A DNA stretch of 64,000 bases from Hyphomicrobiales bacterium (GTDB lineage Bacteria > Pseudomonadota > Alphaproteobacteria > Rhizobiales > Beijerinckiaceae): assembly GCA_027489955.1 (NCBI GenBank), contig JAIXYZ010000004.1:62001-126000 (forward strand), read 5' to 3'. Under the pieces are notes generated by a model. The model did no database searches. It saw nothing but the letters and a program-made list of their open reading frames with translations, and was not told the origin of the DNA. How positions within the stretch are numbered: position 1 is the first letter of the stretch; each line of letters begins with the position of its first letter. Positions 14,768 to 40,640 of the stretch are shown here, in pieces. The position numbers and the translations under genes were made by a program.

Positions 14768-14771
14768 CTTG

Positions 14772-16370
14772 ATGTCGGGCGAGACGAAGAAGCAGTTCAG
14801 GCCGAAGGCGCGGCTTCCGCGCGGACTGGCCGACCGGAACGCCGCGGACATCGCCGCCACGCACCGGATGCTGGAGACGATCCGACAGGTCTACGAGCTT
14901 TACGGCTTCGAGGCGGTGGAGACGCCGTTCATCGAGTACACCGACGCACTCGGCAAGTTCCTGCCGGACCAGGACCGGCCGAACGAGGGCGTGTTCTCGT
15001 TCCAGGACGACGACGAGCAATGGCTGTCGCTGCGCTACGACCTCACGGCGCCGCTCGCCCGCTACGTCGCCGAAAACTACGACGCCCTCCCCAAGCCCTA
15101 TCGCAGTTTCCGGGCGGGCTACGTCTTCCGCAACGAGAAGCCCGGCCCCGGCCGTTTCCGGCAGTTCATGCAGTTCGATGCCGACACGGTCGGCTCCGGC
15201 AGCGTCGCGGCGGATGCCGAGATCTGCATGATGGCGGCCGACACGCTGGAGCGCCTTGGCATTCCGCGCGGGCACTACGTCATCAAGGTCAACAACCGGA
15301 AGGTTCTGGACGGGGTCCTGGAGGCCATCGGCCTGTCCGGGGACGAGAATGCCGGGCGGCGGCTGACCGTGCTGCGGGCCATCGACAAGCTGGACAAGTT
15401 CGGGCCGGAGGGCGTGCGGCTCCTCCTGGGCGCGGGACGCAAGGACGAGAGCGGTGACTTCACCAAGGGCGCGGGGCTGAGCGAGGAGCAGGCCGAACGC
15501 GTTCTCGCGCTCGTGTCATCCCCGGCGCCCGGCGGAGCCGGGCGGGAAGGGGATCCAGCCATCTCGCCCGGGGCTTCTGGATCCCCTTCCCTCGCTTCGC
15601 TCGCCGGGGATGACACCGGAGCACGGCTCGACCAGCTTGCGGCCCTCTTTGGGGCGAACGACACATCGCGCCAGGGCATCGAGGAGCTGCGGGCCATCCA
15701 CGCTCTCGTGGCGGCCGCCGGCTACGGCCCCGACCGCATCCGCATCGACCCCTCCGTCGTCCGCGGTCTCGAATATTACACCGGCCCGGTCTTCGAGGCG
15801 GAGCTCACCTTCGAGGTGACGGGCGAGGACGGGCGGCCCGTGCGGTTCGGCTCGGTGGGCGGCGGCGGGCGCTATGACGGGCTCGTCGGGCGCTTCCGCG
15901 GCGAGGATGTGCCGGCCACGGGCTTCTCCATCGGCGTGTCGCGCCTGTTCGCGGCACTGAAGGCGGTGGGCAGCCCCATCGTCGCGGGCGAGCGGCGCCG
16001 CGGCCCGGTCGTGGTGACGGTCATGGACAAGGACCCAGCCCGCCTGCCGGACTACCAGGGTTTCGTGCGCATTCTGCGCGACGCGGGCATTCCGGCGGAG
16101 CTCTATCTCGGCAGTTCGGGCTTCGGCCCGCAGATGAAATATGCCGACCGCCGCGCCAGCCCGTGCGTGGTCATCCAGGGTTCGGACGAGCACGCCCGCG
16201 GCGAAGTGCAGGTGAAGGACCTGGTGCTGGGCGCGGAGCTTGCCGCCATGGGGCGGGATGCGCGCGACCGGGCCGATTACCTGGAGAAGCAGGCCAGGGC
16301 GCAGTTCGCCGTGCCGGTGGCCGGGCTCGTGGACGCCGTGCGCGAGGTGCTGGCGCGCCACGGCGGATAG
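14772..16370 (+). CDS. hisS: Histidyl-tRNA synthetase with in-frame palindromic insertion
   Basis: Charges tRNA-His with histidine (class II synthetase). Motif 2 is seen in [18 protein letters not shown], the histidine A motif in [12 protein letters not shown], and motif 3 in [12 protein letters not shown]. The product is 532 residues, about 35 longer than I expect for this family. The excess lies at residues 248-282 ([15 protein letters not shown]... to DDTGARL), which are encoded by a palindromic element at 15513-15616. The insertion falls in the linker between the catalytic core and the motif-3 region, where related enzymes have a short variable loop, so activity may be kept. No Shine-Dalgarno is visible: a terminator hairpin sits directly before the ATG. 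Confidence 0.95.
15513..15616. repeat. Palindromic repeat element inside hisS
   Basis: The ends GTGTCATCCCCGGCG (15513-15527) and CGCCGGGGATGACAC (15602-15616) are perfect inverses. Inside, GGAAGGGGATCCAG faces CTGGATCCCCTTCC. The same design occurs between genes at 40436-40558, showing that it is a dispersed repeat. It is read through in frame as about 35 residues of HisS. Confidence 0.9.
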
Positions 16371-16544
16371 GCCGGGCAAGACGGGGAGGATGGGCGCCGC
16401 TCTCGTCGGCGGCCCTCCACCTTGGCCGCGCTGGCCGCGCCGCCGTCATGGTCGGACCTGTCCCGACCATCCACGTCTGCGGTGAAGACATCCGCGCTGC
16501 GATCCCTTTCTGACAAGGGAAGGTGGCCGGCGCGTCGGCGCTGG

Positions 16545-16662
16545 ACGGGTGGGCGTCTTTTGAATGTGGAAGCCCCACCCGGCGCTTCGCGCCACCCTCC
16601 CCTTGCGGGGAGGGATCACCCGCGCGCTGGATGGCTTCGCTTGCGCTCGCAATGACGCCTGG
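16545..16662. repeat. Repeat-like intergenic sequence after hisS
   Basis: Holds GGCGC-TTC-GCGCC (16581-16593), CCCTCCCC-TTGC-GGGGAGGG (16595-16614), and the stretch GGCTTCGCTTGCGCTCGCAATGACG, which I recognise as a kind of sequence repeated between genes in many Hyphomicrobiales. The remaining bases from 16371 to 16693 show no gene. The hairpins may end transcription from both sides (hisS and the leftward operon). Confidence 0.55.
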
Positions 16663-16693
16663 GTCAAGACCGCCCGACGATCCGGCCGGGTCG

Positions 16694-16936
16694 TCAGCCC
16701 GCCGCGCGGTTCGCAAGCACGATCTCCCGGACGCCCACGGCCGCGCAGGCGGCGTGCGCCGCCATGCCCAGCAGGAACGCGCTCCTGTGCCGGGCGAAGG
16801 TGACCCCGCTGTCGGGGAACCCCGCGAACAGGTCGGCAAGGCCCCCCATCTGCCCGGTGGCGAGGCCGAACAGGACGAAGAGCCCGTTCACGACGATGAG
16901 CACCCAGCCGAGGATCCTGCGGCGTTCCGACTTCAT
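16694..16936 (-). CDS. Small membrane protein (hypothetical)
   Basis: An 80-residue protein with two hydrophobic segments, ILGWVLIVVNGLFVLFGLATG and SAFLLGMAAHAACAAVGVREIV, separated by a short loop. A strong GAGGAGG precedes the ATG, and the gene follows the aminotransferase stop by 10 nt, so the two are in one operon. No family recognised. The C-terminus is short and basic. Confidence 0.65.
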   Translation of the reverse strand: MKSERRRILGWVLIVVNGLFVLFGLATGQMGGLADLFAGFPDSGVTFARHRSAFLLGMAAHAACAAVGVREIVLANRAAG

Positions 16937-40362: not shown

Positions 40363-40640
40363 TGTCATCCCGTGCGCGACGCGGCATGACGATGCCGCTT
40401 CGCAGACACGGGATCGGCCGGGCTTTTGCACCCCGTGTCATCCCCGGCGAGCGCAGCGAGGGAAGGGAATCCAGCGAATGGCGGGCGTGGAGCACCGCGC
40501 CGATCGAGCCTGGATCCCCTTCCCCTACGCGCCTGCGGCGCTTCGGCCGGGGATGACAGCGGAGAAAAGGAAATACAAATGACGCCCCGATCCCGTGTCT
40601 GCGGCGCCACGCTTCGCGCTGCGCCGCGCACGGGATGACA
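40363..40640. repeat. Nested palindromic repeat cluster (A-B-A')
   Basis: A (40363-40417) and A' (40587-40640) are inverted copies sharing TGTCATCCCGTGCGCG and CGCAGACACGGGATCGG. Between them is B (40436-40558), bounded by TGTCATCCCCGGC and GCCGGGGATGACA, the same family as the element inside hisS. No gene is seen. The cluster separates two convergent units (L,D-transpeptidase and leuA). Confidence 0.9.

Follow-up and report, generated by a model that had tools for sequence, protein, structure and literature searches.

How a palindrome came to lie within the reading frame of an essential enzyme, and whether it is kept there as peptide or as nucleic acid, are the questions raised by the hisS gene in a 64,000-nucleotide stretch of a Hyphomicrobiales genome (hereafter the window; source genome, G000). 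A preliminary description of the window had reported a palindrome with perfect 15-bp outer ends and an inner palindrome, placed in frame in this gene, and both its coordinates and its description are correct (Table 1). The outer end GTGTCATCCCCGGCG (15513-15527) is the exact reverse complement of CGCCGGGGATGACAC (15602-15616); a further perfect 15-bp pair is formed inside by GGGAAGGGGATCCAG (15544-15558) and CTGGATCCCCTTCCC (15577-15591), with an 18-bp spacer between them; and the repeat unit proper, TGTC...GACA, spans 15514-15615 (102 bp). The hisS frame has no stop across the palindrome (544 amino acids from stop to stop) and is the only HisS match in the source genome; the Pfam HisRS model PF13393 corresponds to residues 30-404 of the frame, covering both sides of the insert. 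We consider it very probable that two CGTC/TGTC-tagged REPs, joined as an inverted dimer, entered hisS without loss of the frame, were tolerated there, and are read as extra residues.

Table 1 Coordinates of hisS, of its palindromic element and of related features. Positions given without a contig are those of the window; G001 is the sister genome.
Feature	Position	Strand	Details
hisS, histidyl-tRNA synthetase	14769..16370	+	start TTG 14769 or ATG 14772; identified from the ORF list and, in the spanning ORF, from Pfam PF13393 (E 1.1e-42) and HGTP_anticodon
Palindromic element (REP dimer), in frame in hisS	15513..15616	+	104 bp; repeats and folds; same site in the sister genome
Left REP arm, TGTCATCCCC..GGGGATCCAG	15514..15558	+	inner hairpin 15526-15544; sole G001 change G to C at 15535
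Central spacer	15559..15576	+	8 of 18 bases differ, G000 vs G001
Right REP arm (inverted), CTGGATCCCC..CCGGGGATGACA	15577..15615	-	sole G001 change T to G at 15597
Intergenic copy of the element	40436..40558	+	123 bp; same layout as the hisS copy
Same-family dimer in Lhr-type helicase	G000 C2:170464-170592 (L010 1412-1541)		in frame
G001-type family in glyS	G000 C5:421819-421940 (L221 1501-1622)		in frame; reading SPSPPVGEGREGG...PSPSLPHKGGEG
G001-type family in glyS	G001 C4:19176-19297 (L224 1501-1622)		in frame; reading SPSPPVGEGREGG...PSPSLPHKGGEG
Further palindrome in G001 glyS	G001 C4:18284-18414 (L273)		in frame; G000 without it

Compared with dinucleotide shuffles, the whole hisS palindrome folds with a z-score of -7.7 as RNA and -7.4 as DNA, and the terminal tags of the element pair together in this full-length fold. 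The left arm alone has a fold z-score of -2.4 and forms 6 bp, an internal loop of 2 and 4 nt, 8 bp and a 3-nt loop; for the right arm alone there is no advantage over its shuffles (z 0.18; 111 of 200 of them fold equally well). Membership of a known RNA family was rejected: the eight Rfam matches, with E values up to 1, were all far under the gathering scores and mostly involved miRNA hairpin models.

The hisS element is one copy of a repeat family dispersed in the genome. The 12-mer at its end, GTCATCCCCGGC, has 84 occurrences in the source genome (3.13 Mb) against 0 for the reversed pattern used as a control, and the genome-wide search for copies proposed in the preliminary description retrieved 30 paired copies (dimers) of 102-139 bp, all inverted with the tags outward, in addition to single arms (a 31st pairing, at C5:399920, was due to chance and was removed from the set). 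In blastn comparisons within the genome, identity between the hisS insert and dispersed copies reaches 100% over 41 bp; 40 of 89 blastn candidates were scored in the source genome and 40 of 71 in the sister genome, the copy numbers being lower bounds. The typical copy consists of two inverted arms, each with TGTC or CGTC outward, followed by AT and CCCC, a variable inner hairpin, and GGGGATCCAG inward. The tag is TGTC in 53 of the 60 arm ends, CGTC in six and CGCC in one, and the GGGGATCCAG tail or a near form of it is present in most arms, as judged by eye. Spacers and inner hairpins vary in sequence between dimers, and the hisS unit is the shortest of the 30 (remaining dimers, 117-139 bp). 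The intergenic copy that had been likened in design to the hisS element indeed has the same layout when read out (Table 1). In the mechanism that we propose, the starting point would be a REP-like hairpin repeat in the form of an inverted dimer, with CGTC/TGTC tags and with CCAG tails pointing inward.

A RAYT-driven REPIN was ruled out: PF01797 (Y1, the RAYT-type transposase) had no match in the source genome, in a search that was positive in five of 14 control genomes, and the tags are TGTC/CGTC, not GTAG. Of the marks of a MITE derived from a known insertion sequence, inverted ends are present, and no clean empty site was found from which a target-site duplication could be read; at the place in the sister genome matching the intergenic copy there is no copy, and the two sequences are too divergent to define an empty site. 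Other repeat-like sequences were observed in the window: the intergenic copy is flanked by what seems to be another repeat, GTCATCCCGTGC at 40364 with the reverse complement at 40639, which gives the region a mosaic look; the segment 3' of hisS (16490-16720) contains CACCCTCCCCTTGCGGGGAGGG and an GCAATGACG-type end; and a 148-bp inverted-repeat cluster was detected by the 12-bp scan at 825-972.

The same repeat family is present in the sister genome, G001, a MAG from a pond that bears the label Hyphomicrobiales (record JAIXTM010000001.1). The 17-mer GTCATCCCCGGCGAGCG occurs 28 times in G000, 15 times in G001 and one to four times in four more genomes; the search covered 60 genomes, these six among them, and the remaining 54 lack it. 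In G001, too, hisS contains this insert, at the identical codon and again in frame, as the preliminary description had found for the window. Being common to G000 and G001, the insert therefore predates their split, and its entry into hisS would have preceded the separation of the two known species of the genus.

HisS loci were retrieved for 30 genomes, G000 and G001 included, and 109 HisS genes, drawn from two collections in which one genome may be present twice, were scanned for palindromes (the second record of G001, L115, was excluded). A strong palindrome (five or more seeds) was found in two of the 109, those of G000 and G001; the hisS insert has 10 seed matches and the other HisS genes have a maximum of four. 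The palindrome is thus absent from all other HisS examined, a result that favours the earlier reading of the segment as an insertion. Between TKGA and the anchor that follows it, G000 has a loop of 71 residues, eight relatives have one of 44, and the range across all 22 relatives measured is 43-83, so that the net gain over the short (44-residue) loop is 27 residues; a slightly longer span has 53-104 residues in 51 of the 109 loci (those in which the motifs used by the script were found). Some relatives have equally long HisS loops without a strong palindrome. With loops of 43-83 residues in the relatives, addition to a short loop and replacement of a long one both fit, and since the loop varies in length in the HisS of this order without palindromes, an insertion at this place is less surprising.

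The same variation in length would also suit an ordinary expansion of the HisS loop, the palindrome being a by-product of GC-rich composition, and so would the number of inverted-repeat clusters in the 109 hisS genes, which is near chance (22, compared with 18.4 in codon shuffles). This explanation is extremely improbable and was rejected in view of the dispersed copies, identical over as much as 41 bp, the 84 end 12-mers against none in the control, the 109-gene scan with its 10 seeds against a maximum of four, and the fold beyond that of shuffles. Under the preferred reading, insertion of a tagged REP dimer, the element would have landed in a HisS loop tolerant of length change, its phase and its length preserving the frame.

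The preliminary description had attributed to the element about 35 extra residues in the enzyme. The open frame and an insert of about 34 residues agree with this figure; the net gain over the short loop is smaller (see above). We infer that the ribosome reads the insert instead of skipping it, that HisS functions as an enzyme, and that it tolerates the extra residues without making use of them. The structure prediction that had been suggested for the insert residues places 251-277, with pLDDT below 50, between helices 238-249 and 282-293 (AlphaFold; alignment of 61 HisS rows, namely the window and 60 of 80 loci; mean pLDDT of 82 in the best model). Low pLDDT alone is weak proof of disorder, because a conserved stretch, residues 63-73, is also below 50 and the other four models have means of 69-73. 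As modelled, this low-confidence, length-variable region fits a tolerated loop, through which the ribosome would read some 34 extra, probably disordered residues. A HisS without these residues would result if the element were skipped (ribosome bypassing) or removed before translation, as might be imagined for a stable hairpin in a coding sequence whose arms are conserved as nucleic acid (see below). Skipping, however, needs no open, phase-keeping insert, whereas both species have just such an insert in hisS, and those in lhr and glyS likewise keep frame and phase; we regard such a loss of the residues as very improbable.

In-frame palindromes were found in further genes of the genus. The dimer of the same family in the Lhr-type helicase gene lies between the DEAD domain, which runs to 407, and Helicase_C, which begins at 513, in a 966-residue frame that also has WH_Lhr; the frame used for its right arm is the one used in hisS. 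Among 23 sequences aligned at this loop besides G001 (including L211, which is partial, and L219, which is distant), comparable extra residues were present in two genomes, G011 and G009, and in none of the rest. The helicase has two loops that contain in-frame palindromic repeats. In G001 the loop just described has a palindrome of a different family, which also fills the second loop, with 87% identity between the two copies. The helicase of G009 has another strong palindrome in the same loop. The G001-type family was also detected in both species in glyS (glycyl-tRNA synthetase beta, PF02092), where the insert follows the motif HDLIDAVLA; of the 19 relatives aligned at this site, 16 have no insertion, two show a few residues, and the last, G012, carries a repeat-like peptide. 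With one query, all four full-length copies of the G001-type family (query included) were inside genes and in the same reading frame, a count not to be overread, since a related variant (query: the other helicase loop of G000) has 29 matches in G000 and 59 in G001, the gene context having been examined for a minority of these. Apart from these copies, glyS of G011 (L247) contains elsewhere in the gene an in-frame palindrome of another repeat type, reading VIPGLVPGIHAAGAGADGRDKPGHDG, and glyS of G000 (L239) carries, ahead of the motif ISAKSLFELL, some 90 additional residues that G001 lacks; no strong palindrome was detected in this stretch, which is length-variable in relatives.

Genes occupy most of a bacterial genome. 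Only two of the 30 dimers (hisS and the Lhr helicase) lie at least 40 residues from either end of a Pfam-bearing ORF, and copies within genes therefore look strongly depleted. The count covers copies away from gene ends: there were 30 candidate ORF rows (at least 40 residues on both sides), of which 20 were submitted to Pfam, three being left out as belonging to the chance pairing and seven as short (one of these seven is antisense at the Lhr copy), and the 18 other dimer-spanning ORFs scanned had no Pfam family. From these counts it would appear that the repeats spread, that selection removed nearly all copies within genes, and that frame-keeping copies in flexible loops survived. Preadaptation of the elements to coding was rejected, 102 of 180 frames being open compared with a shuffle mean of 109.6. 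An inverted-repeat scan of 464 kb (the window plus 400 kb of contig C5) yielded 21 candidate frame rows, among which hisS, the one row submitted to Pfam, was, by eye, the only clear in-frame palindrome; the scan, which needs 12 perfect bases, missed the glyS copy inside the sample and is thus an undercount. A codon-frame score failed to separate the strands and served only as a guide.

The comparison of the two species bears on what is kept in hisS. The fourfold sites changed between G000 and G001 amount to 0 of 21 in the arms, 75 of 269 in the flanks and 3 of 3 in the spacer (arms vs flanks, Fisher one-sided p 0.0014), and among 249 overlapping windows of 21 such sites in the flanks, not one reached the conservation of the arms. 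The flanking hisS codons (n=494) show 99 silent-only and 46 amino-acid-changing differences, and thus look purified. The only two changes in the arms (Table 1) each alter an amino acid. When the arms are folded separately both changed positions fall in loops. For either species, however, the best fold is the full-length one, and in it 15535 and 15597 are partners, forming G-U in G000 and C-G in G001, and 40 of 40 arm-arm pairs remain standard. Random pairs of changes hit partners and left a standard pair in 0.47% of trials, the coincidence having been noticed after the fact. To judge from these substitutions, the palindrome, and not the peptide, seems to be the conserved thing in hisS, a rule that is not general. 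Frozen fourfold sites and a compensating pair are not predicted by plain tolerance of a protein loop, and they count against the preferred reading.

Both are among the observations that would speak for a hairpin kept in hisS for a role at the RNA or DNA level (e.g. ribosome pausing, mRNA protection or chromosome-factor binding), with the amino acids incidental, a possibility that we consider doubtful. The divergence of the hisS spacer while the arms were kept points in the same direction, as do the orthologous pair C12_252419, which behaves alike outside hisS (arms 0/91, spacer 16/38 changed), the left inner hairpin of hisS, kept in both species and not found in other G000 dimers, and the pooled arms of the hisS and glyS inserts (2/40 fourfold sites changed, compared with 154/608; p 0.0012). 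The glyS insert by itself, on the other hand, is not significant (2/19 vs 79/339, p 0.15); the pattern is reversed in the orthologous pair C5_1115793 (arms 9/86, spacer 3/37), and in C8_93645 the arms are both changed (7/64) and gapped (29), with 16/35 changes in the spacer. The comparison involves two genomes only, and correction between arms or exchange between copies would also freeze arms and pair changes without any function. Selection on the hairpin, arm-by-arm correction or exchange between copies could each be the cause; exchange is less likely for the left arm, because its inner hairpin was not found in other G000 dimers. It is also conceivable, though in our estimation rather unlikely, that the hisS hairpin is kept as a nucleic-acid structure, a working REP with a carried-along peptide, and that in this genus the flexible synthetase and helicase loops are recurrent landing places for successive unrelated palindrome families.

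Inserted REP dimers that are tolerated and read as extra residues, the reading that we prefer, would add an uncultured pond lineage of Hyphomicrobiales to the hosts of protein-coding palindromic repeats. Two species with one in-frame insert make a direct comparison possible, in which the silent sites of hisS tell conservation of the nucleic acid apart from that of the protein. The presence of the same repeat in and out of genes allows one to ask what keeps REPs palindromic, and the Lhr helicase loop, with different families in sister genomes, offers a natural test of the gain of disordered loops from selfish DNA.

Among the systems already known, the closest are the CGTC-tagged REPs (Di Nocera et al. 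2013, PMC3733652), described as ending in an unpaired CGTC/TGTC, with AT as first pairs, a stem of 8-9 bp, a loop of 4-5 nt, a short unpaired CCA tail and no dedicated transposase, forming inverted (HH) dimers and occurring mostly in alphaproteobacteria, with Bradyrhizobium and Rhodopseudomonas among their hosts. The hisS element resembles them in the tag, the AT start and the CCA-type tail and probably in the form of its inverted dimer, with tags outward; for a transposase, the Y1 search gave no match. It differs in the build of its arms, where an outer stem of 6 bp is followed by a bulge and then by an inner stem of variable length, in place of the 8-9 bp stem with its 4-5 nt loop. By these sequence traits the element is a CGTC-like member of a known phenomenon, with a bulged arm. 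According to the same article, over half of the intragenic CGTC REPs are dimers or groups and code for 20-30 residues; three species, Xanthomonas oryzae among them, have such copies in tRNA synthetases, and they also occur in repair helicases; recB of two Xanthomonas has different REPs at about the same site, and RPE-4 and RPE-6 are equated with CGTC repeats (PMC3733652). The hint at novelty in the preliminary description therefore finds no support, intragenic CGTC REPs, tRNA synthetases included, having been described in 2013. That article is not known to name a Hyphomicrobiales gene with an intragenic copy, and for in-gene palindromes in this order nothing closer than it was among the matches listed from the open-licence PMC literature.

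Other systems are likened to the present one by description. GTAG REPINs, which are reported to be mobilised by RAYT transposases (PMC3733652; PMC3116915), are also inverted hairpin dimers with copies genome-wide, whereas the tag here is TGTC/CGTC and no Y1 match was found. Coding palindromes are also described in Nematomorpha mitochondria (PMC6649704). In Wolbachia, palindromic elements, most of them without stops, are reported in frame in addA, addB and priA (PMC4224334), which are, like the helicase here, DNA-processing genes with in-frame palindromes. The palindromic elements of Rickettsia are given as 105-146 bp long, with inverted ends, dispersed, and of several families per genome (PMC2229807, PMC10969869), with intragenic insertions in 19 reading frames (PMC2229807). 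The likeness to them drawn in the preliminary description holds, since the hisS element is dispersed, in frame, and adds residues to an essential enzyme; it extends to dispersed in-frame palindromes inside conserved genes (hisS, Lhr helicase) and is one of description, not of membership, the 19 frames of Rickettsia contrasting with the handful found here in a high-GC pond lineage. To these systems the present analysis adds the copy in the Lhr helicase, the other palindrome family in that loop of G001 and in glyS of both species, the contrast at silent sites, and the compensating pair.
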